From the IMG/VR virus record IMGVR_UViG_3300037480_000036, positions 1 to 48,186 of that record: DNA of 48,186 nt; one strand, written 5' to 3'. Positions 3,582 through 46,100 of this stretch are shown piece after piece. Each line of letters opens with the position of its first letter. Within the stretch, counting starts at the first letter, position 1. The translations under genes and the position numbers were made by a program. The notes below the pieces were generated by a model. It was not told the DNA's origin. It was given only the letters and a program-made list of their open reading frames with translations, and searched no databases. The DNA is from a virus.

Positions 3582-4224
3582 AATGCAGAAGATGGAGTGT
3601 GCCATCAGTGAAGTCAAAATGGACCCGTCAACAGGCGAGTTCACTTGTTATGGTAACGTCAAAGGTAATGTTGACCACGCCTTAGATAAAACTATGAACG
3701 GCGCTTACGCAGATAGTATTAAAGCCCATAAGTCTGCTGGAACAATGCCTCAAATGTTCTGGATGCACAAATCACACGATTTGCCGGTTGGTGTATGGTT
3801 AGACATGGAAGAAGATCCTAAAGGTCTGAAGATGCGAGGTCGCCTAAGTAAAACAGCACTTGGTTCTGACATTGAAATCTTAGCCAAAGATGGTGCGCTC
3901 AACATGTTCAGCATTGGCTACTGGGTTGAAGATGAAAAGTGGAACAACGAAGGTTACAACGAGTTACACAAGATACACGTTACAGAAGTATCATGGGTTA
4001 CACGTGCTTGCAATGAAGAATCTGTGTTGTTAGATATTAAATCTAAAATGGACGATGGCGAATTACCAACTAAGCGTGAACTTGAAAAGGTATTACGTGA
4101 ACAGTGTGGTTTTAGTAAACGTCAAGCTAATCGCATCACTAACAGTTATAACCCTGTTGTGGATACTGATACGACTGAACTTGAAGCTATGATGAAAGGG
4201 TTTATCGACCTACCTGATGCTTAA
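3571..4224 (+). CDS. Prohead protease, HK97 (S78/U35) family
   Basis: Serine protease that matures the prohead by cleaving the capsid delta domain. The core motif FWMHKSHDLPVGVW carries the likely catalytic His66, and NMFSIGY carries the likely nucleophile Ser114; both match the family. Length is 217 residues. ATG 3571 is preferred because AAGGTGGA lies just upstream inside the end of the portal gene; a GTG at 3562 is possible but lacks that spacing. The last about 60 residues form an Arg/Lys-rich helical tail not needed for catalysis. The 3' end overlaps the converging HTH gene by 23 nt. Confidence 0.92.
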   Translation: MKNKMQKMECAISEVKMDPSTGEFTCYGNVKGNVDHALDKTMNGAYADSIKAHKSAGTMPQMFWMHKSHDLPVGVWLDMEEDPKGLKMRGRLSKTALGSDIEILAKDGALNMFSIGYWVEDEKWNNEGYNELHKIHVTEVSWVTRACNEESVLLDIKSKMDDGELPTKRELEKVLREQCGFSKRQANRITNSYNPVVDTDTTELEAMMKGFIDLPDA

Positions 4225-4651
4225 TGTTTAACTCATCACAATAAGATTGTGCCGATTCAGAAAGGGTGAAGAAGTTTTCTCTACCTATTATCTTATCGGT
4301 GCATTTCTTACTGTCTTTTTTAATTGCATAACCGTTCAGCACTTGCATAACTACGAACTCATTTTTATACCGTTTTGGCAAGTGACAGCCTCGTATTAAG
4401 TTGTAAGTGGTTTTTGTCGAAAGACCCAACTTCTCAGCTGCGTCATGGATTGTTCCACCCTCGTTAATTATTGCCAGTACGGTATCTTTTCTCACCTGTT
4501 TCCTGTACGTCAACAGTGTAATACCGTGGCGCGTCAAGAAGCGATTAAGTATTGCAGGGTCAACATCGTATTTTTCTGCTATTTGTAATACTGGAATAGT
4601 CAGTGATAATTCCAGTATGTTAGGTATGTCTGTGTATTCTAATTCGTTCAT
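4202..4651 (-). CDS. Helix-turn-helix DNA-binding protein, inserted in the head module
   Basis: A 149-residue protein on the opposite strand from all surrounding head genes. Residues about 22-40 (IAEKYDVDPAILNRFLTRHG) and 68-90 (DAAEKLGLSTKTTYNLIRG) look like two helix-turn-helix units, so DNA binding is likely. The target is unknown. It starts at ATG 4651 with AAGGA upstream and has its own CRP-type promoter at 4689-4731. Own promoter, opposite strand and position between protease and capsid genes fit a moron-type insertion. It could be a transcription factor, including for the phage's repeated operators, or a relative of homing-endonuclease DNA-binding tails. Confidence 0.75.
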   Translation of the reverse strand: MNELEYTDIPNILELSLTIPVLQIAEKYDVDPAILNRFLTRHGITLLTYRKQVRKDTVLAIINEGGTIHDAAEKLGLSTKTTYNLIRGCHLPKRYKNEFVVMQVLNGYAIKKDSKKCTDKIIGRENFFTLSESAQSYCDELNIKHQVGR

Positions 4652-4688
4652 GTTTGTTCCTTAATTTAAGGGTTGAGTAATGGGCTGA

Positions 4689-4731
4689 ATCTTAGAACAC
4701 TTCGCACCTGAATACTGTGAACTAAGTCACA
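4689..4731 (-). promoter_or_regulatory. CRP-type class II promoter A, for the HTH gene
   Basis: Read on the reverse strand: TGTGA-CTTAGT-TCACA at 4731-4716, then 21 nt, then TAAGAT at 4694-4689 as the -10. Counting from the -10 puts the operator centre at -41.5. The geometry is the same as in promoters B, C, D and E. There is no consensus -35, as expected for an activator-dependent promoter. Confidence 0.75.
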
Positions 4732-6256: not shown

Positions 6257-6283
6257 AAGCCCACTTAGTTGTGGGCTTTTTGT
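6257..6283 (+). terminator. Rho-independent terminator after the capsid gene
   Basis: Perfect stem AAGCCCAC/GTGGGCTT (6257-6264 and 6271-6278) with loop TTAGTT and a following T run. Placed 24 nt after the capsid stop. It may also stop the converging reverse operon. Confidence 0.88.
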
Positions 6284-6471
6284 TATCTCAACTTACTACC
6301 AGTGTGAACAAACACACCTTCGTCGTTTAATTCATAGAACTGAAACGTGGGTACAATCTCACCCATTACGTTTACCATTGTTCGTGTTTTGTAACGTGTA
6401 ACACCTTCAGCAACACAAATCGTTTGACCGCTAAGTGGTCCACCTTTACATTCATAACGAATCATGTGCAT
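6283..6471 (-). CDS. Small GGPLSGQ-motif phage protein
   Basis: A 62-residue protein of unknown role. Residues 9-15 (GGPLSGQ) are the hallmark of a small-protein family common in phages. It ends in an aromatic beta-rich stretch (TFQFYELNDEGVFVHTG). It is a paralogue of the forward gene at 15442-15606, which has GGPLDGQ in the same place. It is the second gene of a two-gene reverse operon, starting 2 nt after the zinc-ribbon gene stop; an in-frame ATG two codons later is an alternative start. Function unknown. Confidence 0.75.
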   Translation of the reverse strand: MHMIRYECKGGPLSGQTICVAEGVTRYKTRTMVNVMGEIVPTFQFYELNDEGVFVHTGSKLR

Positions 6472-6473
6472 GG

Positions 6474-6641
6474 CTATTCCCCATCAGGTAAATTACGCTT
6501 GTCGATGTGCATAAGGTGTGTAGCTTCACCACCACATTGAGGGCAAGTACATTTACCCTTTACAGTTTCAACAGCGTATTCTTTCACTGTTTCAGTTAGA
6601 CGATAACCACATTCACACATTTTAATAATTCGGTCTTTCAT
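6474..6641 (-). CDS. Small zinc-ribbon protein
   Basis: A 55-residue reading frame on the reverse strand. It starts at ATG 6641 with CGGAGTAA upstream and begins MKDRIIKMCECGYRL. It holds two Cys pairs, CEC at residues 9-11 and CTCPQCGG at 32-39, which is the pattern of a treble-clef or rubredoxin-like zinc ribbon. It lies first in the reverse operon behind CRP-type promoter B. Binding of nucleic acid or protein is plausible; no specific role can be read. Confidence 0.72.
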   Translation of the reverse strand: MKDRIIKMCECGYRLTETVKEYAVETVKGKCTCPQCGGEATHLMHIDKRNLPDGE

Positions 6642-6673: not shown

Positions 6674-6716
6674 ATAGTAGAACAGTTACTAAACGAATAC
6701 TGTGAGCATTGTCACA
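6674..6716 (-). promoter_or_regulatory. CRP-type class II promoter B, for the zinc-ribbon/GGPLSGQ operon
   Basis: Read on the reverse strand: TGTGA-CAATGC-TCACA at 6716-6701, exactly 21 nt, then TACTAT at 6679-6674. The operator centre is at -41.5. The 6-nt context TGTTC-TA before and into the -10 is shared with promoters A and E. Confidence 0.78.
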
Positions 6717-15359: not shown

Positions 15360-15402
15360 TGAGATGTTCGTCACAGTTTTTCTCTGTTGGTTGTTCTATC
15401 AT
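15360..15402 (+). promoter_or_regulatory. CRP-type class II promoter E (forward)
   Basis: TGAGA-TGTTCG-TCACA at 15360-15375, exactly 21 nt, then TATCAT at 15397-15402. One half-site differs from consensus by one base. Geometry is identical to the four reverse promoters, and TGTTC-TA precedes the -10 as in A and B. It would drive the GGPLDGQ gene at 15442. Confidence 0.65.
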
Positions 15403-15441: not shown

Positions 15442-15606
15442 ATGTCACACACAGTAATGTTGCGAGGTGGACCACTTGACGGTCAAAAGCGGGTTCGTAC
15501 TTTTCTTGCTGATATCATGCGGATTAAATCACCTGATAAAAAATGTTTCCATGTCTACTTAAAAGAAAACAACAACCTTTATTTGTTTAACCGTACAGAA
15601 GATTAA
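15442..15606 (+). CDS. Small GGPLDGQ-motif phage protein (paralogue of 6283-6471)
   Basis: A 54-residue protein too short for usual gene lists. It starts at ATG 15442 after an AGGAG and begins MSHTVMLRGGPLDGQ, then a short beta-rich body ending NLYLFNRTED. The motif and the aromatic C-terminal strand match the reverse gene at 6283. Both copies sit behind CRP-type promoters inside the virion gene block. Function unknown. Confidence 0.75.
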   Translation: MSHTVMLRGGPLDGQKRVRTFLADIMRIKSPDKKCFHVYLKENNNLYLFNRTED

Positions 15607-15712
15607 CCACCCTTCAAACCAATGCACATGCTCAGTCGTGTGCATAACCCTCGCACCATCCCCTATTGTTCGTTATACTATTACCCATCAATAATCAACA
15701 GTGGGCTATAAC
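15607..15712. other. Intergenic stretch with a hairpin
   Basis: Holds ATGCACATG/CGTGTGCAT at about 15622-15645, a 9-bp stem with one G-U pair and a 6-nt loop but no T run, and a TATACT hexamer at 15674-15679 that could be a -10 for the tape measure gene. No gene is seen. Confidence 0.4.
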
Positions 15713-18256
15713 ATGAGTGAACAAAGAATACAGACCGTCAAGATCGATTGGCAGACAGGTGACGCTAAGACTAAGGTTGTTGAGTTCACTCGTTCTATTA
15801 AGGGTACTGATAAAGCTGTTGAAGAACTCAACAAGACGTTAGGTGATAGCGCGACTGTTACCAATAAAACAACACTCTCTAAAAAAGAGATGACAGCACA
15901 GGCACGTAAAGAGTTCACTGCTGCCACTCGACTTGTTACCAAGTACAACAATCTTACTGACTCACTCAAGCAACAGTCGAAAATGTACAATATGACCGAT
16001 GATGCTGCTGAGATTTATGCTGCTCAAATGCGACTTGGTGCTAATGCCACTAAAGAGCAGAAGGATGAAGTTGCTCGACTTATTACAGTTATGCAAAAAC
16101 AACGTGCTGTCAGTGGTAAAGTGCAAGGATCGATGCGTGGGTTACGTGGTCAAGCACAGAACCTAGGTTGGCAAATGCAAGATGTCGCGGTACAGATGCA
16201 GGCAGGCACAGATGCAATGGTTATCTTCTCGCAACAGGGTTCGCAACTTGCTTCAGGTTTTGGACCAAGTGGTGCGCTTGTGGGTGCGTTAATCGCAGTA
16301 GGTGGTGCAATTGCTGGTGTGGTGTTGAAAACTGCTGAGATGAAAGAGATTCAGAAGTTAACCGCTGTTAGCACTAAAGAGTTGACTGCGCGACTATATG
16401 AGTTGGCCAAAGCAGGTAAAGAGCTTAACTACCATGAAGAAGAAGCAACTAAAGACTTACAGAAAAGAAAAATAAAAAACACAATCAAAGCATTAGAGGA
16501 TCAAAGAAAGCAAACTGCTGAGTTACGCAAGGAGTCTGAGCGACTTTCTGAAGTGTTGAGACAAAAAGAAAAGTTCGCATCTACACAGACTGAACTTGAT
16601 AGACAGATGGACATACAGAAGCAGAAAGACGCAACAGAGGCACTTGTTAGTTCTACTGCTAAACAGCTTACATTAGAGAAAGACCTAGCCAAAGCAAAGA
16701 GAAATCTGCAAAACATCATCGATGGCAAACCTTTCGAGAAAGACACAAAAGAGAAGAAAGAAAACATCGAGGTGATGGACGCTCATATACAGGCACATTA
16801 CAAATACCTAGAGGCGCTAAAGAAAGAAGATGACGCTGCTAAAGCAACAGTAGCTGGTTGGGAAAACAAAACATTCTTAATGGGTGAGAGTGCAAGAAGT
16901 CAGGCACTTGCCACTGCGATGATCAAGGCCACAACGAGTGCAGAGGTCGAACACCTACCAACACTACAACTGGCAATTAACAAGTATTACGACAAAAAAG
17001 ATGCAATAGACGCACTGAACAAGTCACAAAAAGAACAGTTGTCGTTTGAAAAACAGTTGCTTGCTCAGATGGTGGAAGAAGCTGATGAGGCCGAAAGAGT
17101 CAGAAAACTAGCGTCTGATGAACTAGCACAGTCACAAGCAATTATTGAATCTTGGAAAACTAAGATTAAATTGTTAGGTCTTAGTGCCAGAGAGCAAGCA
17201 CTTCTCAACGCTCAACTGTCTGTAACAACAAGCGCACAAGTTGCACATTTACCTGTGCAAGAGAAGTTGATCAACAAATATTATGACGAGAAAGACGCAC
17301 TTGAGGCAGTGGCACAAGCTGAGAAAGATCGCGTTAGATTGTCCAAAGAAGCGTACAAGCAAGCTGAAGCAGAAGTTGCTCGACGCGAAAAAGTCTTAGG
17401 TGGGGCAAGTAGAGAAATTGGTGCAGGTAAAACTGGTGATCCAGTGCTTGATGAAATGGTGAAGCACAACCGACTAATGGAAACACTGAACGAAGAACGT
17501 AAAAAAATAGGGTGGTCGAGATACGAAGAACACAAACGTATTAACGAGTTGACCGAAGCAGAACAATCGCGCCACAAGCAAGTAATGGGTGACTTAGCAC
17601 ACGCTGGTTTACAGGCCGAGTATCAAGCAGGTGCAGAGTTCTTGAGTGGCATGACTAACGTGATGGCACAACTCACAGCAATAGCACAGGATGGCAGTAA
17701 AGAGGCTGAGGCAATGTTCTATGCCACTCAAGCTGTTGCGCTAGCATCTACAATAGTGAACACCGAGATGGCAGCATCTAAAGCGATGGCGTTCAGTTCA
17801 ACAGGTACACTTGCTGAGATGATATCTTCAGCACTTGCTGTACGTTCACTAGGTTACGCATCTGCTGGTATCATAGCAGGTACAACATTCGCTGGTATGT
17901 TCGATAAAGGTGGTGTCATTCCCAACGGTCAAGCAGGTGTTGTTGCTGAACGATACGATGAAATGGTTGGCGGTACGATGGTGTACAACAACTCAGGTTC
18001 AGGTCTTAACGTGACAGGTAGTAAAGATACTGCGGCAATGGTTGGTGGTGGAGGTCTTAACGTCACGGTGGTTAATAACGCAACCGGCAGTGTTAAAACT
18101 GAAGTTCAGCAAATCGATGAAAACAATGTTAAGATATTAATAGCTGAACACTTCAGTAAAAACATTGATAAAAGCGTGTCTGGTGTTATTGGTAAAAAAG
18201 GTAGTAAAACAGATAAAGCGATGCGTCAGAACTTCAACACCACGAGGAAATACTAA
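15713..18256 (+). CDS. Tape measure protein
   Basis: Sets tail length and is ejected ahead of the DNA. The 847-residue, largely helical protein has long charged coiled-coil stretches, a hydrophobic segment GALVGALIAVGGAIAGVVL near residue 190 that could cross the inner membrane, and a C-terminal lambda gpH-like part (ATQAVALASTIVNTEMAASK, then GMFDKGGVIPNGQ). Two related units of about 55 residues occur near 380 and 480 (KTFLMGESARSQAL and KIKLLGLSAREQAL, each ending KYYD-KDA). At about 0.15 nm per residue it predicts a tail near 125 nm. ATG 15713 is chosen over a GTG at 15701. Confidence 0.93.
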   Translation: MSEQRIQTVKIDWQTGDAKTKVVEFTRSIKGTDKAVEELNKTLGDSATVTNKTTLSKKEMTAQARKEFTAATRLVTKYNNLTDSLKQQSKMYNMTDDAAEIYAAQMRLGANATKEQKDEVARLITVMQKQRAVSGKVQGSMRGLRGQAQNLGWQMQDVAVQMQAGTDAMVIFSQQGSQLASGFGPSGALVGALIAVGGAIAGVVLKTAEMKEIQKLTAVSTKELTARLYELAKAGKELNYHEEEATKDLQKRKIKNTIKALEDQRKQTAELRKESERLSEVLRQKEKFASTQTELDRQMDIQKQKDATEALVSSTAKQLTLEKDLAKAKRNLQNIIDGKPFEKDTKEKKENIEVMDAHIQAHYKYLEALKKEDDAAKATVAGWENKTFLMGESARSQALATAMIKATTSAEVEHLPTLQLAINKYYDKKDAIDALNKSQKEQLSFEKQLLAQMVEEADEAERVRKLASDELAQSQAIIESWKTKIKLLGLSAREQALLNAQLSVTTSAQVAHLPVQEKLINKYYDEKDALEAVAQAEKDRVRLSKEAYKQAEAEVARREKVLGGASREIGAGKTGDPVLDEMVKHNRLMETLNEERKKIGWSRYEEHKRINELTEAEQSRHKQVMGDLAHAGLQAEYQAGAEFLSGMTNVMAQLTAIAQDGSKEAEAMFYATQAVALASTIVNTEMAASKAMAFSSTGTLAEMISSALAVRSLGYASAGIIAGTTFAGMFDKGGVIPNGQAGVVAERYDEMVGGTMVYNNSGSGLNVTGSKDTAAMVGGGGLNVTVVNNATGSVKTEVQQIDENNVKILIAEHFSKNIDKSVSGVIGKKGSKTDKAMRQNFNTTRKY

Positions 18257-24712: not shown

Positions 24713-25432
24713 ATGCCTATAAACATCAAATTGAAAGGGGTTGAGTTCAATAACCCAAACTTACCAGTGATCATACCGACAACAGCAGACGGTTTTGTTG
24801 TTCGAGGCTTGTTCGGTGCTTACGACTTTAAAAACGGAAACGTTGCTAGTATGTATGGTATCGGGCCAGTGATAACTAAAACGGGTACATCGTCGCAGCC
24901 TTATGGTATCGAACTTAACGGTGCCGGTGACATGCTGGAATTAGCAGACAAGCCATTAGGTACTTGCACCTACATAGTGTTTTCACGAAATAGAAATGAA
25001 GGTGTTATATCAACAGACACAATCCTATCTGACTCATTTTCATTAGGTCAAGGGATGAGACTGCACTACCCTAATAATTCAGAAGTGAGCGCGTGGCAGT
25101 ATAATACAGTCGATAACAATCCAAAACCATCAATCGGCCTTACTGTTGATACTGATTGGGACGTGTTTGCTGTACGTGTGAACTATGAGACGCGTGAATT
25201 GAGCGTGTCAATGCTGAATGACAACAAGGTTCACACAACAACAGCAACAAATGCCTTTGTGCAAAGCAACGACCCGTTGAGGATCGGTGCTTCTAATGGT
25301 AATGGTAATGATCTGTTTGGTTCGGTAAGTATGTTTTTGATGTACGACACATACTTAACTGACGCTGAACTATCTGCAAACTATGCAGCAATCAAAGCAA
25401 ATCAGCCGTCAGAGATACCACCACTACCTTAA
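24713..25432 (+). CDS. Concanavalin/laminin-G-like lectin, accessory tail protein
   Basis: A 239-residue protein with the beta-sandwich pattern of LamG/ConA-like lectins: LFGAYDFKNG near residue 34, GIELNGAGDMLEL, DTDWDVFAVRVNYETRELSVSM and the closing SVSMFLMYDTYLTDAELSANYAAIK. This closing segment is typical of phage LamG proteins next to tail fibres. It probably binds surface sugars. GGAG precedes the ATG. The end overlaps the converging polymerase gene by 9 nt, so the late block ends here. Confidence 0.78.
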   Translation: MPINIKLKGVEFNNPNLPVIIPTTADGFVVRGLFGAYDFKNGNVASMYGIGPVITKTGTSSQPYGIELNGAGDMLELADKPLGTCTYIVFSRNRNEGVISTDTILSDSFSLGQGMRLHYPNNSEVSAWQYNTVDNNPKPSIGLTVDTDWDVFAVRVNYETRELSVSMLNDNKVHTTTATNAFVQSNDPLRIGASNGNGNDLFGSVSMFLMYDTYLTDAELSANYAAIKANQPSEIPPLP

Positions 25433-27508
25433 CTCATCAACCAACTTACGAGCTTCAGCAATGTAGTAATCGTAATTGATGTCATTAAACTCGTGGCCAG
25501 CGATACTGTTACAAACGGTCACGAGATACCCTTTTTGAATACTCATACGTCTATCTGGTGGTGTGTCGAATGGCTTAGGTATTTGGCCATACTTACCAGA
25601 TGGCGCTTTCTTAGCGTTCACCATCTTACCATTATCACGATGCTTCCAATGTGCCACGCTGTGCCATTTCTCAATGAGTGGCTGTGTAGGAGGCATAACT
25701 TTCGTTAACGCACCACCTGTTTCACTCACATAGTATCTTGACACGTTCTGCACCTGTTCATCACCGCATAACAAGTGACTGCTGCGCGGTACTTTGGTTC
25801 GTAAGAAGAAGTCGTACACATCATCATGGTTGTGAATGAACTCAGCGATGTCTTGATCGTGCATCAGTGCTGCTTCTGCTGCTTTAGCAACAACTACTGC
25901 ACTGTGGTTTTTATTCCACGTTAGTTCACGAGTACCACTGTTTTCTTCAATACGTTGATGTGCATAACAACCGATACGTTTAACATACTGGTTTTTATCA
26001 GCAGGTAGTGTTGCGTATTGTAATTCACCTAAACAATGGCTGAAGTCATCTGGTTTAGACCCGTTGGTAGGTAAGTCTTTAATCTTCCACTTGTCCGTTT
26101 TGGCCATATACGAATTTACATCTCGTATTGGCATACGTTCATAAGGTGCATGTTCAAGTTCGAGCTGTGTTAAATCTTCCCACCATTCACTCAGCAACAT
26201 TGCATGGTTAACATGTTCACGAGGACATGAATAAGTTACACCATCGGTGTTCATCTGAATCATGGTCAACCCAGGTATCTTGATTAACTGTTCAGTCAAC
26301 ATGCACAAAAGCAATTGGCCGTTAATGGTTGTTGCTAACGTGTACTTAGGATCTAAGAACGGACTGTGAACATCGTTTGATTTACCGTACACACCATTCA
26401 GTGCTAGTTTCATCATGTTGTTCTCAGCAGTACCTTTCGCATAAGTTTTACGTTGCTCATATACGTTAAGGTAAACATCACAGAATTTCTCAGTTAAGTG
26501 TTCAGGGTACAGCTTGTTCTTGATTGCCAGGTTCGGGTAGAACGATGCAACATCGCTGTCGATTATTTGATGTGTGTCTGTACTGGTACAAATCTGTTTA
26601 CTCAGTGAAGCATGAATACCACCACCACCGAACACAACATGGAAACCGTCAATATCAGCAGTAAGTTCCTGCTCGAATTGGCTAAAGTATGACTTAATAC
26701 CTTGACCTTCAGTTGGTATAACTGCATTGCGGAAAAACTCCAACACGCGCTGAAACTCAGGATGCTCGAACTGCACGTAAGGTAGAATAATCTCACCAGC
26801 GTTAACACATGCACGAGGTGTTTGAGTACGCTTATTAGCTTTCACACCTGCATCTGCCAGTTGCATCACGAAGAAGTCTGCACCTATCTTAGTGTCGTTG
26901 TGGTTCGTGAAGTTCTTATCGTACTTCTCAGTCAACTTGTCACGGAACTCAATCATAGGTCGTGATAGATCACCGAACTTACGAGTCGCCTTAACATCAT
27001 GCCAGTTGTACGTAAGCACCTCACGACTCTCAGCAAGTGTAAGCACATGGTCAGGTTTATACGGTAACTCGATGATGTCATCCATACGCATATTGAACTC
27101 TAACAACTTGAGTGATGTCATCTTGGCAGCGTTGTCGAAGTGGTGGATCTTCATCAGGTCGAGTTGTGGTACGAATTGGTTATCATCCCAAATAATATTA
27201 CTGAATCGATCACCGTTATTACCACACGTGATGATGTGGTCACACTTCTGCTTCAGCGTTGGCGCATCTATTTGGCCCTGCTGTTGCATGAGTAGGTGTA
27301 ACATAGGGTAATCGAACCCATAGTTATTAAATCCACCCATACGCCCACCACTGTTAGCTATCTGCATCAGTAGTTGGTACAGTGCTTGACCATCATGTTT
27401 CCACGGTGAGATTTCAAATTGCCAACGTGCTTTATCTGTATCACGCTCAATACAGATGCTGAAGAAGTTAGGGTAACTTTCGATGTCGTACCAGTAGATA
27501 GTGTTCAT
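25424..27508 (-). CDS. Family B DNA polymerase
   Basis: Replicative polymerase with 3'-5' proofreading, 694 residues. Exonuclease motifs: YDIESY (Asp8, Glu10), GGFNNYGFDYPML (Asn61, Asp66) and YNWHDVKATRKF (Asp171). Polymerase motifs: A DSDVASFYP (from 317), B KLALNGVYG (from 367), C MNTDG (Asp422). Motif C has Asn-Thr-Asp in place of the usual Asp-Thr-Asp, as in some phage B-type enzymes. It is last in the replication operon and its start overlaps the Dam gene by 4 nt. Confidence 0.95.
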   Translation of the reverse strand: MNTIYWYDIESYPNFFSICIERDTDKARWQFEISPWKHDGQALYQLLMQIANSGGRMGGFNNYGFDYPMLHLLMQQQGQIDAPTLKQKCDHIITCGNNGDRFSNIIWDDNQFVPQLDLMKIHHFDNAAKMTSLKLLEFNMRMDDIIELPYKPDHVLTLAESREVLTYNWHDVKATRKFGDLSRPMIEFRDKLTEKYDKNFTNHNDTKIGADFFVMQLADAGVKANKRTQTPRACVNAGEIILPYVQFEHPEFQRVLEFFRNAVIPTEGQGIKSYFSQFEQELTADIDGFHVVFGGGGIHASLSKQICTSTDTHQIIDSDVASFYPNLAIKNKLYPEHLTEKFCDVYLNVYEQRKTYAKGTAENNMMKLALNGVYGKSNDVHSPFLDPKYTLATTINGQLLLCMLTEQLIKIPGLTMIQMNTDGVTYSCPREHVNHAMLLSEWWEDLTQLELEHAPYERMPIRDVNSYMAKTDKWKIKDLPTNGSKPDDFSHCLGELQYATLPADKNQYVKRIGCYAHQRIEENSGTRELTWNKNHSAVVVAKAAEAALMHDQDIAEFIHNHDDVYDFFLRTKVPRSSHLLCGDEQVQNVSRYYVSETGGALTKVMPPTQPLIEKWHSVAHWKHRDNGKMVNAKKAPSGKYGQIPKPFDTPPDRRMSIQKGYLVTVCNSIAGHEFNDINYDYYIAEARKLVDELR

Positions 27509-28008
27509 CGGTCAGCATTCTCCATATCACAACGGTCGATTAGTTTAGCAGGTCGCTGTTCATCACCCCCATCAAACACAAACACCACAGACCCTTTATT
27601 ATTACCAGACTGAGGTTTACCCGTTTCAGCGTTAATGAAGCTAATACGACCACTTATGAACTCACATTCGGTACAGTTATAAAACGCCTCACGGAACCAC
27701 GCAACTGAGGTGTCAGCAGGTACAAGCATCACTGTTGTTTTGCCCTTGGTGGACTCATCAATGGCTTTATCAACCCACGGACGAATATTACTGTATGGAG
27801 GGTTACACCAATTCACCTTACCCCACGGTGTTGACAGTGCATCATCTGCTTCAGTCAAATAGTTAGGTACAAGATGGTTGTGGTCACTTGCAGCTACATC
27901 ACATGTGAACTTGTATTGCTTGTTGTACCAGTTGAACACGAACTTAGGTGTCTGAAATAAATCACGTATTGCTGGTTTAGTTGTCGAACCTGTGTAACCC
28001 TTGGCCAT
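27505..28008 (-). CDS. Phage DNA N6-adenine methyltransferase (Dam, PF05869 type)
   Basis: A 167-residue methylase. The N terminus DLFQTPKFVFNWYNKQYKFTCDVAAS and catalytic motif WCNPPYSNI near residue 92 are typical of the phage Dam family. It probably methylates adenine in phage DNA to evade host restriction. It lies between the MazG-like and polymerase genes in one operon, starting 1 nt after the former ends and overlapping the latter. Confidence 0.92.
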   Translation of the reverse strand: MAKGYTGSTTKPAIRDLFQTPKFVFNWYNKQYKFTCDVAASDHNHLVPNYLTEADDALSTPWGKVNWCNPPYSNIRPWVDKAIDESTKGKTTVMLVPADTSVAWFREAFYNCTECEFISGRISFINAETGKPQSGNNKGSVVFVFDGGDEQRPAKLIDRCDMENADR

Positions 28009-28009
28009 G

Positions 28010-28450
28010 TTACTCTCCTTGATTCTCAGGTAAGTCTTTAGCCTTAACGAATGTGCCGTTGATCATACGACCACCTGCTGTGCGCTTGTTAAGCACTTCA
28101 TACACAGGGTACAGCTCCGTAGAACGACTTGTACCAAGCATTGATAGTATTTGTGTACCAACAACGTGCATATCACATACAGCATCTATCTGTTCTGCTA
28201 CTGCGTTTTCAGGTGCTACTGGTTTGATACGACCACGTGCCAGTAATGCTAATAGCATACCTTGTACGATTTCTACAATTTCAGTAGGTGATTTATCAGG
28301 ACATTGAGCTGCAACTAATTCGACAAATTCTTCACCCATTTTGATGGTTTGCGCCCAGACAGTACCTTGCTCAACGATACATGTGTCGTGACCCCATTGG
28401 ACCAGTTTATTTTCTGTGTGGTTTAAGTCGTACGTGACAACTTCTCTCAT
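28010..28450 (-). CDS. MazG-like nucleotide pyrophosphohydrolase
   Basis: A 146-residue, all-helical protein. It has the metal-binding pattern of the MazG/dUTPase superfamily: KMGEEFVELVAAQ near residue 38 and EQIDAVCDMHVVGTQ near 86 (E-x-x-E, then E-x-x-D). It would hydrolyse non-canonical or excess NTPs, or lower ppGpp as proposed for other phage MazG proteins. The start overlaps the DUF3310 gene stop by ATGA. Confidence 0.75.
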   Translation of the reverse strand: MREVVTYDLNHTENKLVQWGHDTCIVEQGTVWAQTIKMGEEFVELVAAQCPDKSPTEIVEIVQGMLLALLARGRIKPVAPENAVAEQIDAVCDMHVVGTQILSMLGTSRSTELYPVYEVLNKRTAGGRMINGTFVKAKDLPENQGE

Positions 28451-28941
28451 GATTGTTTCTCCGCTTCATAAATCCATAAGTCCAGCACGTGTCGAGCTTT
28501 CTTCAGTTGCTCAACCTCGTTATCTTTGGCTCTGGTGGTGTATTTGTTAATCTTGGTATAACAAGCACCTGAGAATGCTTCATAACCTCGATTAAGTAAG
28601 GTTAGTTTTAATGGTTGAACAGCTTTATCTGTGTAATGACTACCACCAACTTGGCCATCCCAAGGTGAGGGTTTCGCACGTTTAATAGGTGGTGCAGACA
28701 ACACATCGTCATCTTCAACCCCATGTTCACACAACTGCACTTCTTCAACATGTTCAACGAAACGTGCTGATGTTGCATGTATTTTATGTCCGTCTTTATA
28801 CAAATAAGTACCTGTTGTACCGTTGTGTACTGCGAACACTTCACCTTCTTTGAAGCTACTACCTACACCTAATGTGCTGCAATCACTAACACAACGCACC
28901 ATCGCGTAGTTACCACATTCTGCTATCTTCTTACCTTTCAT
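28447..28941 (-). CDS. DUF3310 protein with N-terminal SH3-like extension
   Basis: A 164-residue protein. The C-terminal part has the DUF3310 pattern: VGGSHYTDKAVQPLKL near 98, then TKINKYTTRAKDNEVEQLKKARHVLD. The family is often labelled nucleotide kinase-like, but its function is unproven. The N-terminal 70 residues look like a beta-barrel. It is the first gene behind CRP-type promoter C, with AAGGA before the ATG, and starts the unit DUF3310, MazG, Dam, polymerase. Confidence 0.82.
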   Translation of the reverse strand: MKGKKIAECGNYAMVRCVSDCSTLGVGSSFKEGEVFAVHNGTTGTYLYKDGHKIHATSARFVEHVEEVQLCEHGVEDDDVLSAPPIKRAKPSPWDGQVGGSHYTDKAVQPLKLTLLNRGYEAFSGACYTKINKYTTRAKDNEVEQLKKARHVLDLWIYEAEKQS

Positions 28942-28989: not shown

Positions 28990-29015
28990 GTTGAATTACT
29001 GTGAACTGAATCACA
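28973..29015 (-). promoter_or_regulatory. CRP-type class II promoter C, for DUF3310-MazG-Dam-polymerase
   Basis: Read on the reverse strand: TGTGA-TTCAGT-TCACA at 29015-29000, exactly 21 nt, then TACTAT at 28978-28973. The operator overlaps the stop codon of the upstream HTH gene. Confidence 0.78.
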
Positions 29016-29668: not shown

Positions 29669-30676
29669 TTAAGCCACTGTGTAGTTAGCTTGACCGTGAC
29701 CGTGGCTGATAAGTAGTTCATCAGTCCAACCTTGTGCGATCATATCAGCGTAAGCAGGTTGACCAGGGTTCATGATCACAGGGTCGGCAGTTACCACAGG
29801 AGCAGCAGGAGCAGCAGGTGCAGCAGGTGCAGCAGGTGCAGCAGGTGCAGCAGGTGCAGCAGGTGCAGTGACTACAGGAACAACGTCAGCAACAACAGCA
29901 GCTGCTGTTAACACAGGGTCGATCATTGCACCAGCGACAACAGCAGGGTTAACCACAGGAGCAGCAGGTGCAGGTACAGCAGGTGCAGCAGGTGCAGCAG
30001 GTGCAGCAGGTGCAGCAGGTGCTACAGGTGTGAACTGTTGATCTGCACCAGCTGCGATATTAGTGTTGGTTACTACTGAACTTGCAAACGCTGATGATGC
30101 TGCTTGTTGTACTGCGCCGCCGCCTAGTTTTGCATCGTCATAACACTTCATCACGTTGAGTAGACGTAGTGAGATAACGCGGTTACCAGCATTAGTGTCG
30201 AATGCCTGTGCTTCAAGTTCAACACGCACCCAACAACCACGGTAAATAGCAGCAGGGTTAATATCTTTAGCATCAGGACCACATGTGCCAACTGGCTCTT
30301 TGTTCTTAGCTGAGATTAACCACATACCTGCTGTGTTCGGATCAACAGAACCAGGAATCGGGTTTTTGTTAGCATCTTTCTGTAACTTCTGGTCACCATC
30401 AGCTAGTTTAGGTGGGTACTGAATTCCCATTGCTGGGTTGTCGTACACTTCACGTGGCTGTTGGAATGCTTCCATCGTACATTCGTTTAGTGCTGCGAAA
30501 ATATCTTCGTGTGTTGTTGTAGCCATTGCTTGACCACCGATAACAACTTGGCCATCTTTAGGGAACGCAAGTTGAATACCGTATTTAGGAACATCACCCT
30601 GTTGGTGTGCGTATGGTGCTGTTAGGTTTACAGAGATTGCTCGTGCGAAACCTGTGATCAAAGTACGTGAACTCAT
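29669..30676 (-). CDS. Single-strand DNA-binding protein-like (DUF2815) with Ala-Pro-rich linker
   Basis: Residues 1 to about 185 follow the DUF2815 / T7 gp2.5-like OB-fold pattern (ARAISVNLTAPYAHQ, then IYRGCWVRVELEAQAFD and RLLNVMKCYDDAKLGGG). Residues about 215-300 are two low-complexity Ala-Pro tracts encoded by 9-bp repeats. The C terminus is short and lacks the usual acidic tip. The protein likely coats single-stranded DNA at the fork and recruits partners. It sits between the DUF2800 and VRR-NUC genes. Confidence 0.82.
   Translation of the reverse strand: MSSRTLITGFARAISVNLTAPYAHQQGDVPKYGIQLAFPKDGQVVIGGQAMATTTHEDIFAALNECTMEAFQQPREVYDNPAMGIQYPPKLADGDQKLQKDANKNPIPGSVDPNTAGMWLISAKNKEPVGTCGPDAKDINPAAIYRGCWVRVELEAQAFDTNAGNRVISLRLLNVMKCYDDAKLGGGAVQQAASSAFASSVVTNTNIAAGADQQFTPVAPAAPAAPAAPAAPAVPAPAAPVVNPAVVAGAMIDPVLTAAAVVADVVPVVTAPAAPAAPAAPAAPAAPAAPAAPVVTADPVIMNPGQPAYADMIAQGWTDELLISHGHGQANYTVA
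29800..30030. repeat. Two tracts of 9-bp coding repeats (Ala-Pro) in the SSB-like gene
   Basis: Near-identical GCAGGTGCA-type units occur in tandem at about 29800-29868 and 29958-30030, encoding Ala-Ala-Pro runs on the reverse strand. Their near-perfect DNA identity suggests recent slippage-driven expansion of a flexible linker. Confidence 0.85.
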
Positions 30677-37338: not shown

Positions 37339-37680
37339 ATGAGCGATAAAATGCCACATGATAAACTAGGATTAATGGAGCGACTATTTGAATACGGGGT
37401 TTTCGGCTACGTATGGTTGATCATAATCTCTATTTGGGGTGGCACAGTTCGTTACATTATCGAAGTTCGCAAAGGTGAACGTCCATCTTTCATGTCGTGG
37501 GTATATGAAGCATGTGTTAGTGGTTTTGTAGGTGTTATCACTGCTATGGTTTGCCAGTATTATGCGTTAGATTTCTTAATTACTTCAGCTATCACAGGTG
37601 TTGCTGCTCACAATGGAACCAGAACACTATACGTACTAACTGAAGTAATTAAGAAGCGCATTAATAAGGAGTTGGGTTAG
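37339..37680 (+). CDS. Holin, LydA-like family
   Basis: A 113-residue membrane protein with three hydrophobic segments: VWLIIISIWGGTVRYI (about 25-40), FVGVITAMVCQYYALDFLI (about 63-81) and SAITGVAAHNGTRTLYVL (about 82-99). The GGTVRYI and HNGTR motifs match LydA-type holins. It permeabilises the inner membrane at lysis time. It ends the forward lysis block with a 4-nt convergent overlap with the HAD gene. Confidence 0.83.
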   Translation: MSDKMPHDKLGLMERLFEYGVFGYVWLIIISIWGGTVRYIIEVRKGERPSFMSWVYEACVSGFVGVITAMVCQYYALDFLITSAITGVAAHNGTRTLYVLTEVIKKRINKELG

Positions 37681-38252
37681 ACCTTCACCACCTTATAACC
37701 AGCATCAGTCAACACGTTCACGTTGTCATCTTGATCATCAAACGCACCTATAATATCGTGCGTTTTACTTATCTCGTTGAACTCATCCAACTTAACTAAC
37801 GTGTGACAGCGATTGTCGTTTATCTTGCGCATGTGAACATAACCAATTGGCAATCCTGCACTCATCAGCGCATCAAGTGTTTCACCTATCCCATCTTCAC
37901 AACGTGATGTGACGTAACGAATTTCCATGTCTGTCTTAGCTATTGCACGTGCTATGATTGCCACGTGTTCGATGACTGTATCTAAGTGACACGCTTTGTT
38001 CCACTCAGTCCAGTTTTCTGTACGTGATGGATCATCTGGTATCAAGTGTTCACGTGCTGAGTTATCGAACAACGTACCGTCAAGATCGAACACGTAACAC
38101 TCCTGCTTAATCAACGTCAGTTGTTCACGTGGTTTACCACCGATAACATAGAACTCACCAGGTGAGCGTTCTACTGACCACCAACACTGACCTGATTCTA
38201 ATATCTTCTTGATGTAACGCTTTCCATCAGCGTTCTGGTAATATGTTTCCAT
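37677..38252 (-). CDS. HAD-family phosphatase, polynucleotide phosphatase-like
   Basis: A 191-residue protein. HAD motifs: I YVFDLDGTLFDN near 52, II YVTSR near 112, III Lys in LVKLDEF near 152, IV IGAFDDQDDNV near 168. The order and short cap resemble the 3'-phosphatase half of T4-type polynucleotide kinase and related phage nucleotidases. It may clean 3' ends of DNA or RNA, or act on nucleotides. Last gene of the modification operon, downstream of the methylase-like gene. Confidence 0.85.
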   Translation of the reverse strand: METYYQNADGKRYIKKILESGQCWWSVERSPGEFYVIGGKPREQLTLIKQECYVFDLDGTLFDNSAREHLIPDDPSRTENWTEWNKACHLDTVIEHVAIIARAIAKTDMEIRYVTSRCEDGIGETLDALMSAGLPIGYVHMRKINDNRCHTLVKLDEFNEISKTHDIIGAFDDQDDNVNVLTDAGYKVVKV

Positions 38253-38262
38253 TATATATCCT

Positions 38263-38880
38263 CTACGGGTTAGCTAATTTGAATGCTTGTGCAAAGCCTG
38301 GTGAACATAGACTGCGTAAGTCAGCATCACACTTGATACGGTCCTTACACCAGTCGAATTCAGGCATGTGTTGTATTGCTGACTTATGTAGTATTGCTAG
38401 TGATGGCATTGTGTCTCTATCACGGATATACAACCCATCACGTAACACCACATCTTCACGTTTCAACACTGTTGCTGGTGGCTTGTTGAACTTACCCCAT
38501 AGTGCTGTTTGTTTGGTCCAAGGTGAACCGTACTGCCAAGGTTGGTACGTTAGGTCTGGTTTACCTAAGAACTCTCGTAAGCGACCCTTGGCTGGGTTTT
38601 CTATCACGTGCCATTCGGGTTGTGCTTGCTCGATGATACGTAAACAGTGGTTGACCATTATCATACCTTTCTCAAGATCCCCTACCTTGTGAAAACCATC
38701 TGCTGTGCTGAACTCTGTACATACAGGATTAGCAATAACACCGTGGTACTTAGCACGAGGTATGAAGTTCTCAACACCTATACGAATACCAACCTTGAAC
38801 ACGTTGTAGTTATCATCGAGCTGGTAGAAACGTGAGTCAGCACCTAAGTCAGCGCAAAGGTGCAAGATGTTACGCTTCAT
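38263..38880 (-). CDS. Short DNA cytosine-C5 methyltransferase-like protein
   Basis: A 205-residue protein. It has a motif I-like start ILHLCADLGADSRFY, catalytic-type VIANPVCTEFS (Cys near residue 54), EWHVIENPAKGRLREFLG near 90 (ENV replaced by ENP) and PWTKQTALWGKF near 119 in the place of motif VIII. The target-recognition domain is absent. It could methylate or hydroxymethylate cytosine, or use another C5 chemistry. The start overlaps the glycosyltransferase stop by ATGA, which suggests they act together. Confidence 0.75.
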   Translation of the reverse strand: MKRNILHLCADLGADSRFYQLDDNYNVFKVGIRIGVENFIPRAKYHGVIANPVCTEFSTADGFHKVGDLEKGMIMVNHCLRIIEQAQPEWHVIENPAKGRLREFLGKPDLTYQPWQYGSPWTKQTALWGKFNKPPATVLKREDVVLRDGLYIRDRDTMPSLAILHKSAIQHMPEFDWCKDRIKCDADLRSLCSPGFAQAFKLANP

Positions 38881-40046
38881 AACTTCTCCACCATTATTAA
38901 CCCGTAATTATCAACACCAATGAAATCCTGGGTACCACTTTTAATCAACTTGTTGCCTTTGAATGGCTTATAGTTAACATGATGATGGTGTCTATTGAAG
39001 CGCCACACAACACTTGCTACGTCAGGGTGTAAGTCGGCTATCATTTGCGATTTTGGTAGTGTACCCTCATCTGCATAAAACTCTTTAGTGTTACCGCCTT
39101 TCATTCGCTGTGTTGTAACCTTACCACATAGAAAGGCGTTAAATTGAATTGTGCATAAACCATCTTTCAGCACTCTAAGTGATAGGTCTGTATCTTCGTT
39201 GTATCTACCGCGCCAAGGGTAATCAAACGAGTTGTCAATCAGCAAACATGAGTAAATTCTAGTGTTCATTACAAGCGGTGGCACTGCGTCTGTCTTTTTG
39301 CAGAATGAATAATAATTCAAGCCTGACACAGGAACGTTTGAGTACCTATCAACAAAATCCTCTGCTGCTAATAACGTAGCGCCAGTCTCAACTTCGTATT
39401 TCTCGTTTTTATTCAGATAGTGAAAAGCATCTAAGTTATCATCCATGACCCAGTGCTTTTTGAACCCGTTATCAACAGAGTGTTGCTTGCAGAAATTGCG
39501 CGCTGCTCCTGGGCCTTTGCTTCGCGCACCACCTAATTCATCACAAGTATCATAACTATCAAGATATGATTGCGGTAAGGTTATCACTGTTGCGCTTATG
39601 TTTGATTTAAGCAGGTATTCACCGTATTCGCTAGCCTCAACCACTAGATAGTGATCAACCCCCATTTTGTGCAGCGCCTTTGTTGTTAACCCGTTATCAA
39701 CCCTACCCTTTGATACTATGTAAACTGGGTATTTTGGTTGCACTCTTTCGGTTGTAATGTATTTCTTTTTAATGCCACCCCAATGTGATTTGAAAGGGAA
39801 CCATATCGACTTTGTTTTCTCTGTTATTTTTTGACTAACAACGTCGGCAAACAGCGACCTTTGTGATGTGATACTGTTAAACCCAAGGTTAAAACATCGA
39901 AACTTAAAAGTGTCATGGTCTTGCTTATTCTCAAATCTTACAAATAAATACGACCCACCAATAAAGGTTATCTTCTCTTTCGCGTAAGGCTCCTTCTTTT
40001 TCTGTATAAACTCAGGCATTCCAACCCATTCTGACTTAATATTCAC
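38877..40046 (-). CDS. TET-associated-type glycosyltransferase (TAGT-like), DNA modification
   Basis: About 389 residues. The catalytic region matches the TAGT group: YPVYIVSKGRVDNGLTTKAL, then VDHYLVVEASEYGEYL, GPGAARNFCKQHS, HWVMDDNLDAFHYLN (DxD-like), and RGRYNEDTDLSLRVLKDG, GGNTKEFYADEG, FNRHHHHVNY. Such enzymes attach sugars to hydroxymethylated pyrimidines in phage DNA. I prefer GTG 40046, in GTGA overlap with the previous stop and 7 nt after GGAGG, over a GTG at 40079. The N-terminal about 110 residues are an extra, unrecognised region. Confidence 0.85.
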   Translation of the reverse strand: MNIKSEWVGMPEFIQKKKEPYAKEKITFIGGSYLFVRFENKQDHDTFKFRCFNLGFNSITSQRSLFADVVSQKITEKTKSIWFPFKSHWGGIKKKYITTERVQPKYPVYIVSKGRVDNGLTTKALHKMGVDHYLVVEASEYGEYLLKSNISATVITLPQSYLDSYDTCDELGGARSKGPGAARNFCKQHSVDNGFKKHWVMDDNLDAFHYLNKNEKYEVETGATLLAAEDFVDRYSNVPVSGLNYYSFCKKTDAVPPLVMNTRIYSCLLIDNSFDYPWRGRYNEDTDLSLRVLKDGLCTIQFNAFLCGKVTTQRMKGGNTKEFYADEGTLPKSQMIADLHPDVASVVWRFNRHHHHVNYKPFKGNKLIKSGTQDFIGVDNYGLIMVEKL

Positions 40047-40510
40047 TTCTCCACCTCCCAAGGCGCTAAAAACTCCCACGCACCTAACTTCATAAACAGG
40101 TCGTACATGGCATCGTTGTCGTACAGTGCATCAACAGGTCGTGCAATCCAACCAAGTGATACGAACTGTTGCTTGTTGAAGTCGTTGATCATCTTGTCGT
40201 GGTGATGGCGTAGTGACTTGTTGATCTGGCTTGAATAGAACTTACCAGGTGGTGCTACATCTCTCGTTTTCCAGTACGAACCACCTGTAGGACATCGACC
40301 ACACACAAACAACAACACTGACCAGTTGTGCTTCACCTCAGTCATGTCACGCATGACTTCCACAGCTTTCTCACGTGTAAGTGATGGTGAGTTGAGCGTG
40401 TTCATGTTGATGATCTCACACTTGTCACCGGGTAGTAGGGTGACAGCCAAGTTACGCACGTTCTTACGCGCCATTATCGTTTGTTGTACTAGTTTACTTT
40501 TGTTTTTCAT
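40043..40510 (-). CDS. Unknown protein, first gene of the modification operon
   Basis: A 155-residue basic protein starting at ATG 40510 after AGGAGAC. It has a C-rich VCGRCPTGGSYW segment near 69, a His cluster SLRHHHDKMIND near 99 and a conserved-looking LGWIARPVDALYDNDAMYDLFMKLGAWEFLAPWE end. It is not a recognisable TET/JBP oxygenase. It is directly behind CRP-type promoter D and coupled to the glycosyltransferase, so a role in DNA modification is possible. Confidence 0.6.
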   Translation of the reverse strand: MKNKSKLVQQTIMARKNVRNLAVTLLPGDKCEIINMNTLNSPSLTREKAVEVMRDMTEVKHNWSVLLFVCGRCPTGGSYWKTRDVAPPGKFYSSQINKSLRHHHDKMINDFNKQQFVSLGWIARPVDALYDNDAMYDLFMKLGAWEFLAPWEVEK

Positions 40511-40544: not shown

Positions 40545-40587
40545 ATTATATATAACCACCCTGTCAATTACTGTGAGGTTGGTCACG
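40545..40587 (-). promoter_or_regulatory. CRP-type class II promoter D, for the DNA-modification operon
   Basis: Read on the reverse strand: CGTGA-CCAACC-TCACA at 40587-40572, exactly 21 nt, then a consensus TATAAT at 40550-40545. A second, N7-spaced copy TGTGA-TAACGGT-TCACA lies at 40592-40608. This is the strongest -10 of the set. Confidence 0.8.
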
Positions 40588-41497: not shown

Positions 41498-43771
41498 CTA
41501 AACTCCCACACGTTTAAACGACTTAACTTGACTACCGTCTGACTTGTGACGTACAGCATGTTCGTAACCTAAGTTGCGTAGCCATTTACCTAGTACAACT
41601 GAACTTGGTTTCTTGTTGTCTGACCACCAGTTATCAGGCATAACAGGTCTGAAGTCTTGGATCTGGAAACCGTCAACATGATCTATCAGTCTACCAGGTC
41701 TACCGTCTGAGAAGTGTGCGTTATCTAAGTATTCCTGTAATCGGTTTTCTTTCTCACTGGCTGTTTGTGCGTTCAGTTCTGTGCCGAACTTAGTCTGTGG
41801 TGCGCGGAATCGGTTATTGACAAACTCATCACTGATAACATGATCACGCAACGCCCAATGTACAGCAGGTGCATGTTCATCAAGGTTAACTGCGTTCATC
41901 ATGTCATCAAAATGCTGTTTCATGTCTGTTTGTGTACGAACAGTTACCGTATTTTTACCAAAGTGCTGTGTCTCAAGTATGAACCAACGACGATCATCAT
42001 GTGCAACACTAATCGGATCTGGCTCATTCGTGAACGCGATGTAGTTACAGAAGTTAGGCATTGTTACTTCTTTCGTACCTTTCGGGTTTATCGTTACACG
42101 TTTCTCTGTGATAAATGGTTTCATGTCATTGGCAACACGACGACTATCTTTGTTTCCCACCTTGATTTCCTCAAACGCAGTTACCGCTGAGTTCTTGGCC
42201 CAATCTTGGAAGTCTGAATTAACAGATTTGTTACCCATCATCTTAGTGTTGTTACTACCCACAGCAGATGTAACCAGCTGAAACAGAATAGATTTACCAT
42301 CACCGCGGCAACCCATTAGTAATGGTAACCAACCCACAAGTTCACCTGTGTGTTGTACCTGCCATGCTAGCCAATCGAGGATAATGTGTTGGTGTTTAAT
42401 ATCTTCAAATAACCAGCAAAGATGTGACTTAATCAGCAGTGTAATACGATCTATTTCTGCCTGTGCTGGACGTTTTGGTTCGTATGGGTAATAAGCGTTA
42501 AGGTATGTCTTGCGCTCATACTCCACAATATCTTCACCACCGGGCATATAAAACAAATCTGCGACCACTATACCGTTACATGCTTCCCATACATCAGATG
42601 CTTTATGTTTCTTGAACGACTTACTGCCGGTCTTAACTGGCATACGATCATGGTGTAGTGCATCAAACGACGTTTTGTTGTAGTCAGTGAGAGAGAATTT
42701 ATCGATGTAACGACCTTGTGTGTTCATTACCCAATTATCACGAAAATAGGTGTAATGAGCGTGTAAGATTCCAATGTCAGGGTTGTCAGCGTCTAACTCA
42801 CCTGATTCTAGCGCCATAGTGAGTGCTGTGTCGGCTTCTACGTTGATATTAGTGTTGTTTACTACCTGTGATGCAAAAACCTCTGAGGCTTGCGCTATGG
42901 GCTTAATATACGGTGCGTCGCGTCGAGGTGTGCTGAACCCTGCTGTCCATGCCGATTCAAGTGTTGCTATCACTTCAGATCGTTCACAACCGGCTTTCAT
43001 GGCTGAGTCGAATAACAGGGTGTGTGATGCTTGACTGTCTAACGCTCCACCAGCAACAAGTCCTGCTACGGTCACTGCCAATGTGTTCAGTGTGGCGTTA
43101 CGACCGCCATCTTCTGTGTTCTCCATCTCATCACATGCTATGTGTAACCAATCTTCAGCAAGTTGTATCTGATGATCTGAACATTTGATTGTGCTGTCGA
43201 AGTCCTGCTGAACGTGTGTTGTTTCACGTTTAAGTTGATCTGTGATGATGGATGGTGCTGTTGGATAGCTGTCAGACGCTCTGAGAAGCGCTGTCTTGGA
43301 TTCTTTCAAGTAACACAACTGATTACCCGTTTTGATGTCGATATGCTTCCAGAAGTGTTCTAGGGTGCCTGAATTCGATTGTTTGAAGTCTGTTACGTTG
43401 AACTCTGGTGGTGCGATGAAGAAAAAGTGCAGTGAAGTCATCTCACTGTTCCACTGTACTAAACATTCATCAAATAGCGTTTGTGCCGATGTGAAGCCTA
43501 GCGCGGTGGCTAGTTCATCTGTTGAAGGTATCTCACCTACTGCCTCTGGTTTGTTTCCATCATAGTCCACCAGCACCAGATTGTTTAAGCGAATACCTAC
43601 ACGATCACTGTCAGATGCTTTGGCCCACAGTTGATGATCGTCAGGGTACGTTTGCTTGAGTTTGTAAGGTGCTGGACGTTTGCCTTTCTCACCACACCAA
43701 TCTGCGTAAGGTATGAGGTCGTATGATTGTTTGATTTCAGATGGGATCTGTCTTACAATGTCGATCGACAT
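41498..43771 (-). CDS. Primase-helicase, prim-pol plus DUF5906/SF3-type
   Basis: A 757-residue replication initiator type protein. The N-terminal part has a primase-polymerase-like pair: LVLVDYDGN near 66 and LHFFFIAP near 113. The C-terminal ATPase has Walker A MGCRGDGKSILF near 490, Walker B VTAFEEIK near 530 and a sensor stretch NYIAFTNEPDPI near 575, then DDRRWFILE. It resembles D5/P4-alpha-like helicase-primases. It lies beside the repeat-rich region 43860-44190, which supports an origin there. AAGGAG precedes the ATG. Confidence 0.88.
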   Translation of the reverse strand: MSIDIVRQIPSEIKQSYDLIPYADWCGEKGKRPAPYKLKQTYPDDHQLWAKASDSDRVGIRLNNLVLVDYDGNKPEAVGEIPSTDELATALGFTSAQTLFDECLVQWNSEMTSLHFFFIAPPEFNVTDFKQSNSGTLEHFWKHIDIKTGNQLCYLKESKTALLRASDSYPTAPSIITDQLKRETTHVQQDFDSTIKCSDHQIQLAEDWLHIACDEMENTEDGGRNATLNTLAVTVAGLVAGGALDSQASHTLLFDSAMKAGCERSEVIATLESAWTAGFSTPRRDAPYIKPIAQASEVFASQVVNNTNINVEADTALTMALESGELDADNPDIGILHAHYTYFRDNWVMNTQGRYIDKFSLTDYNKTSFDALHHDRMPVKTGSKSFKKHKASDVWEACNGIVVADLFYMPGGEDIVEYERKTYLNAYYPYEPKRPAQAEIDRITLLIKSHLCWLFEDIKHQHIILDWLAWQVQHTGELVGWLPLLMGCRGDGKSILFQLVTSAVGSNNTKMMGNKSVNSDFQDWAKNSAVTAFEEIKVGNKDSRRVANDMKPFITEKRVTINPKGTKEVTMPNFCNYIAFTNEPDPISVAHDDRRWFILETQHFGKNTVTVRTQTDMKQHFDDMMNAVNLDEHAPAVHWALRDHVISDEFVNNRFRAPQTKFGTELNAQTASEKENRLQEYLDNAHFSDGRPGRLIDHVDGFQIQDFRPVMPDNWWSDNKKPSSVVLGKWLRNLGYEHAVRHKSDGSQVKSFKRVGV

Positions 43772-45946: not shown

Positions 45947-46092
45947 AAAAAGTAACGATCCATATGGGGTGTTCTCAGAAAAAAGTAACGATCCATATGG
46001 GGTGTTCTCAGAAAAAAGTAACGATCCATATGGGGTGTTCTCAGAAAAAAGTAACGATCCATATGGGGTGTTCTCAGAAAAAAGTAACGATC
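45946..46092. repeat. 33-bp tandem repeat array, four perfect copies plus a partial
   Basis: Copies at 45946-45978, 45979-46011, 46012-46044, 46045-46077 and a 15-bp partial 46078-46092. Each unit runs from six A residues through GTAACGATC and the palindrome CCATATGG to GTTCTCAG. All four copies are identical, so expansion is recent or selected. No spacers, so not CRISPR. Confidence 0.97.
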
Positions 46093-46100
46093 TAGGCCTG

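Follow-up and report, generated by a model that had tools for sequence, protein, structure and literature searches.

Class II CRP promoters, whose operator is centred at -41.5, are textbook bacterial biology, and the presence of CRP in vibrios is equally well established. The longer form of the CRP site, TGTGAT...ATCACA, is a preference and not a strict requirement. Late activators of the P2-type Ogr/Delta group act at TGT-N12-ACA sites near -55. Among cellular operons, mglBAC is under positive CRP regulation (PMC2763269). In phage T1, the pir, dam and recE promoters are repressed by cAMP-CRP (PMC6737242). At the Pm promoter of phage Mu (PMC4390567), the phage-encoded activator Mor binds a 16-bp element that contains two 5-bp inverted repeats, lies upstream of the -10 and is centred at -43.5; transcription is by host sigma-70 polymerase.

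Here, we analysed the whole of a 48,186-base IMG/VR virus record (the window). It represents a Vibrio-type phage whose closest named relatives are the vibriophages D287, D63 and D164 (73% DNA identity over parts), with 159E43 and others more remote (51%); Vibrio is the host genus of these relatives. The left half of the window looks like a structural operon on the + strand, and the right part carries polymerase/recombination and DNA-modification genes on the - strand. A sequence-only reading had proposed five promoters of one CRP class II geometry, and all five operators, with their strands, 21-nt spacers and hexamers, were found where it had placed them. Three operators are perfect TGTGA-N6-TCACA palindromes and two contain one mismatch; the GT noted earlier after TCACA indeed forms the next two bases at every site. 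The promoters and the genes behind them are:

4716-4731, - strand: operator 1, TGTGACTTAGTTCACA, perfect TGTGA-N6-TCACA; matrix score 21.4 bits
4689-4694, - strand: putative -10 hexamer of promoter 1, TAAGAT, exactly 21 nt past the operator
4202-4651, - strand: gene of promoter 1, P0001, a 149-aa protein with homeodomain-like HTH (HTH_23, E 2e-4, below cut-off)
6701-6716, - strand: operator 2, TGTGACAATGCTCACA, perfect; 24.6 bits
6674-6679, - strand: putative -10 hexamer of promoter 2, TACTAT, 21 nt past the operator
6474-6641, - strand: first gene of promoter 2, a 55-aa Cys4 zinc-ribbon-like protein (weak Zn_ribbon_16)
6283-6471, - strand: second gene of promoter 2, a 62-aa GGPLSGQ protein
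29000-29015, - strand: operator 3, TGTGATTCAGTTCACA, perfect; 23.9 bits
28973-28978, - strand: putative -10 hexamer of promoter 3, TACTAT, 21 nt past the operator
25424-28941, - strand: operon of promoter 3, with DUF3310 protein, a 146-aa ORF, Dam-family methyltransferase and DNA polymerase
40572-40587, - strand: operator 4, CGTGACCAACCTCACA, one mismatch (CGTGA); 25.4 bits
40545-40550, - strand: putative -10 hexamer of promoter 4, TATAAT, 21 nt past the operator
37677-40510, - strand: DNA-modification set of promoter 4, with phrog_5434 protein, TAGT-family DNA glycosyltransferase, DNA methyltransferase-like protein and PNK-type phosphatase
15360-15375, + strand: operator 5, TGAGATGTTCGTCACA, one mismatch (TGAGA); 25.5 bits
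15397-15402, + strand: putative -10 hexamer of promoter 5, TATCAT, 21 nt past the operator
15442-15606, + strand: gene of promoter 5, a 54-aa GGPLDGQ protein

The window operators are intergenic, or their overlap is limited to the 3' end of the preceding gene, and in all five cases the start codon of the downstream ORF lies 32-40 nt from the hexamer. Three of the promoters precede small accessory-gene cassettes (HTH; zinc ribbon plus GGPLSGQ; GGPLDGQ), two of which are located within the structural region in opposite orientation; the P0001 gene, for example, runs against its flanking structural genes. A large ORF whose homologue is annotated as tape measure protein (15701-18256) lies 3' of the GGPLDGQ gene. 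The two GGPL(S/D)GQ proteins gave no Pfam or PHROG match, and no further small GGPL protein was found among 22 records; inside their genes, a 23-nt inverted match (91%) pairs window positions 6423-6445 with 15465-15487. Other repeats of the window comprise a perfect 33-nt tandem repeat at 45946-46110, AAAAAAGTAACGATCCATATGGGGTGTTCTCAG, in about 4-5 copies directly after an HNH endonuclease gene, and a 9-nt repeat array at 29761-30066 (CAGGTGCAG...) inside the - strand gene for an Enc34-type ssDNA-binding protein.

The locus resembles each of the described systems in part. As in T1, host CRP would act on several promoters of one phage and tie them to the host sugar supply; the T1 excerpt, however, describes repression by CRP and mentions no common class II layout, whereas activation geometry is seen here, in other phages. 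With Mu Pm, the window promoters have in common the two 5-bp inverted repeats, the 16-bp element upstream of the -10 and, presumably, host sigma-70 polymerase, but they differ from it in operator centre, and no Mor-family protein (PF08765) was found above the cut-off in 21 records. The likeness to Ogr/Delta lies in the TGT...ACA dyad and in the small Cys4 protein behind one window promoter; since the phages with sites do not share any Cys4 protein, an Ogr-type common regulator was rejected. When 85,000 prokaryote genomes were scanned for TGTGA-N6-TCACA-GTA-18-TATNAT, a single Enterobacteriaceae gene dominated the matches listed, and we take its product to be MglB, the galactose-binding protein. 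Enterobacterial mglBAC agrees in the TGTGA-N6-TCACA palindrome, the 21 nt to the -10, the centre at -41.5 and the GTA after TCACA. In contrast to mglBAC, promoters of the window type lie on phage genomes, 5-13 per 40-48 kb, where they would drive phage genes, and their operators favour C/G at the edges of N6, while mglB itself reads TGTGAG. The same operator and 21-nt -10 layout was also seen at Firmicute or MAG genes starting MFCNQCEQ (hybrid-cluster-protein-like; L140, L146 and L168), and these sites presumably belong to another CRP/FNR-family regulator.

To assess the set, the window was compared with shuffled sequence, as proposed along with the sequence-only reading, both by a pattern with the 21-nt/-10 constraint and by a matrix, and the five sites stood far above the shuffles. 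With at most one operator mismatch, a TA...T hexamer matching in at least 4/6 positions and a spacer of 21, five sites were counted in the window, compared with a mean of 0.1 and a maximum of 2 in 300 dinucleotide shuffles. A position matrix (-54 to +2) was trained on 83 sites of other phages, the window and D287 being excluded against circularity. Its top five hits in the window were exactly these promoters (25.5, 25.4, 24.6, 23.9 and 21.4 bits), followed by a score of 6.2; in 200 shuffled windows the best score averaged 8.6 bits and the fifth-best did not exceed 8.8. No sixth site of this standard was found when the whole window was scanned. From the matrix ranking and the shuffle scores, it follows that the window set is real and, by the matrix standard, complete.

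The anatomy of the promoters was derived from a logo of 89 distinct sites, in which operator and hexamer were selected and the remaining columns were not; two very A/T-rich contigs, G006 and G025, were excluded, as -10 matches are frequent in such sequences. The operator centre lies at -41.5, 21 nt from the -10, in all five window promoters if +1 is placed at the preferred A. A/T prevails at -52 and -51 (86-93%) and also at -31 and -30, which are the flank positions of a 22-bp CRP site. The segment from -35 to -30 reads C A G (T/A) A (A/T), with neither TTGACA nor any other -35 hexamer. G occupies -33 in 83% of sites (a value biased in sites from contigs found by the GT pattern, most sites of named phages being unbiased), while its symmetric partner at -50 is unselected. 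In TTGACA, position -33 is the G; as the -33 G of the logo is asymmetric, it would serve the polymerase and not the operator-binding protein. G at -14, part of an extended -10, was present in 64% of sites, and the predicted +1 is preferably A, with C or T before it.

The promoters recur in relatives of the window. Promoter 3, in front of the polymerase operon, was found at the equivalent place in L004, L005 and D287, whose DNA polymerases are 86%, 62% and (at the protein level) 76% identical to that of the window, respectively; when aligned, these sites agree in the operator core and in the TA--AT of the hexamer while the spacer drifts. From other relatives, L035, L030 and L031 cover the structural region, with 60-78% identity in the capsid protein. 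In L035, promoters 1 and 2 both occupy the matching places and run against the capsid gene, the counterpart of operator 2 being at 3602-3617, and promoter 1 is present in L030 and L031 as well. The zinc-ribbon gene of promoter 2 occurs in all three, with products 52-54% identical. The cargo of promoter 1 is different: the HTH gene is replaced by one small ORF in L030 and L035 and by another in L031. At this capsid-gene boundary slot (window 4202-4731), close relatives thus carry a 149-aa HTH, a 73-aa or a 53-aa ORF, and promoter 1 stays while its cargo is exchanged, like moron-type cassettes. More distant polymerase relatives (159E43, 103E44.1, LMAVpSH, 393E50-1 and KLEA5) and the outgroups MZH0603, 1.021.A and Sasha contained no such sites. 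As many related vibriophages lack them, the use of CRP is not essential to this phage type. At 42800-42815 of D287 (L002), we also noted a perfect TGTGA-N6-TCACA in an A/T-rich stretch where no -10 follows after 21 nt; it may represent another kind of CRP-type arrangement.

An exact-pattern scan of IMG/VR led through multi-site contigs to cultured vibriophages. Sites with spacer 21 numbered 13 in P23, 12 in K2, 11 in G007, 10 each in ValSw3-3 and 1.106.O, 7 each in pYD38-B, jenny 12G5 and G008, 6 in 1.060.A and 5 in G022, with shuffle means below 0.1 for the recurrent site-bearing genomes; because these genomes were reached via pattern-matching contigs, the counts demonstrate existence and not frequency among all vibriophages. 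Summed over 22 records, 100 sites were found at spacer 21, and each of the remaining spacers between 12 and 35 gave 1-14. The window has just 2-7 of about 65 protein clusters in common with these phages, and the promoter set has therefore originated, or been swapped, in two or more lineages. In IMG/VR as a whole, raw counts at spacer 21 (34 stretches) and spacer 26 (29 stretches) were similar, so the whole-database count was dropped as proof of enrichment and the context of the sites was used as evidence instead. At spacer 21, 18 of 30 distinct sites precede a ribosome site and an ORF and 8 of 30 lie inside long open frames, versus 4 and 15 of 20, respectively, at spacer 26. In the other phages, the sites mostly precede small proteins without assigned function; a PAPS-reductase-like or HTH gene is an occasional alternative. 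ValSw3-3 is described as lytic with a 15-min latent period, and a word search of its paper found no mention of CRP or integrase (PMC7199398).

Taken together, the shuffles, the conservation in relatives and the same 21-nt spacing in other lineages strongly support the earlier claim of one co-regulated promoter set of class II type. The sequence-only reading had named either host CRP or a phage HTH mimic as the regulator; the former is now favoured, while the latter has lost ground, P0001 kin being found in just 5 of 11 site-bearing genomes and not in D287. We consider it likely, on sequence grounds, that the five window sites are genuine promoters of a single class, activated by host cAMP-CRP in the class II manner. 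Host CRP is the most economical candidate because i) clustering and profile searches found no protein that all 11 site-bearing genomes share, ii) no phage-encoded CRP-family protein exceeded the cut-off in the 21 records (the Crp domain, PF00325, had zero phage matches, and HTH_Crp_2, PF13545, gave sub-threshold scraps, with zero in the window), nor did any Mor homologue, so that both were discarded as regulators, and iii) the operator matches the consensus for CRP, with a spacing that is that of class II.

Alternatively, the activator of the same promoters might be a different protein, from the phage or from the host, with a CRP-like operator, for example of the HTH, Mor/C or Ogr zinc-finger type, although we regard this as improbable. 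One argument for it comes from a comparison with 31 genomes around a Photobacterium genome, in which counts are indicative (the host of the window itself is unrecorded). Perfect sites in two Photobacterium-group genomes have T as the first N6 base in 27 of 40 cases (68%), whereas phage half-sites have C in 74 of 178 (42%) and T in 42 of 178 (24%); the preference for C in phages versus T in hosts is significant (Fisher p 3e-7) and departs from the host-type TGTGAT...ATCACA. Perfect class II layouts are also rare in the host group, with 7 in the 31 genomes and GT next in one. The promoter set of the phages is much denser than that of the related host chromosomes covered here. The N6-edge mismatch and the rarity of host layouts could reflect phage-specific optimisation or another protein. 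Furthermore, HTH genes stand behind sites in the window, jenny 12G5 and K2; a weakly similar HTH group including P0001 occurs in those 5 of 11 site-bearing genomes (window counted) and in none of 8 site-free ones; the Cys4 protein follows promoter 2 in the window and near relatives; and Mor with its 5-bp inverted repeats in a 16-bp element upstream of a phage promoter (PMC4390567) offers a precedent. However, the HTH group is missing from 6 of 11 site-bearing genomes and also from the promoter-bearing D287, for which reason P0001 was rejected as the common regulator, and neither a Mor above the cut-off nor a shared Cys4 protein nor an all-genome protein cluster offers a substitute, while consensus and spacing are those of CRP.

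It is very unlikely that CRP binds but that the sites mainly repress phage promoters or soak up host CRP during infection. A cell contains about a few thousand CRP dimers, and 13 sites per genome multiplied by many genome copies could approach this amount; repression also has its precedent in the T1 promoters (PMC6737242). Yet neither role would require a fixed distance to the -10, and activation is what calls for the constant -41.5, the poor -35 region and the G at -14. Coincidental matches in a phage genome rich in A/T can be dismissed: although one-mismatch palindromes by themselves are just moderately enriched in the window (16 versus a mean of 9), none of the 300 shuffles yielded five sites under the operator plus 21-nt -10 constraint, the independent matrix parts the five from the rest by more than 15 bits, other spacers are poor in sites and orthologous sites are kept in relatives.

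Assuming activation by host CRP, a CRP dimer on TGTGA-N6-TCACA at -41.5 would replace the contact of RNA polymerase with a -35 hexamer, and sigma would read the -10, aided by G at -14 and probably also by G at -33. In the window, such promoters would drive the polymerase operon, the DNA-modification genes and the three accessory cassettes, and vibriophages of other lineages would rely on the same class more extensively, with as many as 13 promoters per genome. As CRP-cAMP is already present at phage entry, the promoters would need no phage protein, and they probably serve to express genes as soon as infection begins, without a phage factor. Output would be strongest in carbon-limited hosts, in which cAMP is high. 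CRP binding, transcription and dependence on carbon are inferred, the last from CRP biology only. The occurrence of up to 13 sites in other Vibrio phages, some nearly unrelated, suggests that the host nutrient sensor runs phage genes. On balance, we find it somewhat probable that lytic vibriophages of at least two lineages use host CRP as a genome-wide transcription activator (as many as 13 promoters of class II type in a 40-kb genome), with the carbon state of the host gating replication, DNA modification and accessory genes and the promoter serving as a portable unit before exchangeable accessory genes.

While the promoter type itself is known, its use as a phage genome-wide class II CRP-type set spread through vibriophages appears to be new: among open-licence papers, we found nothing beyond T1 on CRP-dependent vibriophage promoters, and an earlier description is possible. 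If confirmed, it would connect the carbon starvation of bacteria to the lytic programme of marine phages by a direct molecular link that can be tested, and the test system is ready-made, because several of these phages have been cultured. Many vibriophage genomes would also gain promoter annotation, together with a means of finding their early and accessory genes. The promoter type may extend beyond vibriophages. Very A/T-rich phages from sample 3300028048 (L083-L087; IMG/VR contigs G025 and G006) contain several perfect palindromes, e.g. TGTGATATATATCACA, with TATAAT at 21 nt, and the tested part of G025 had no relative in the phage collection.
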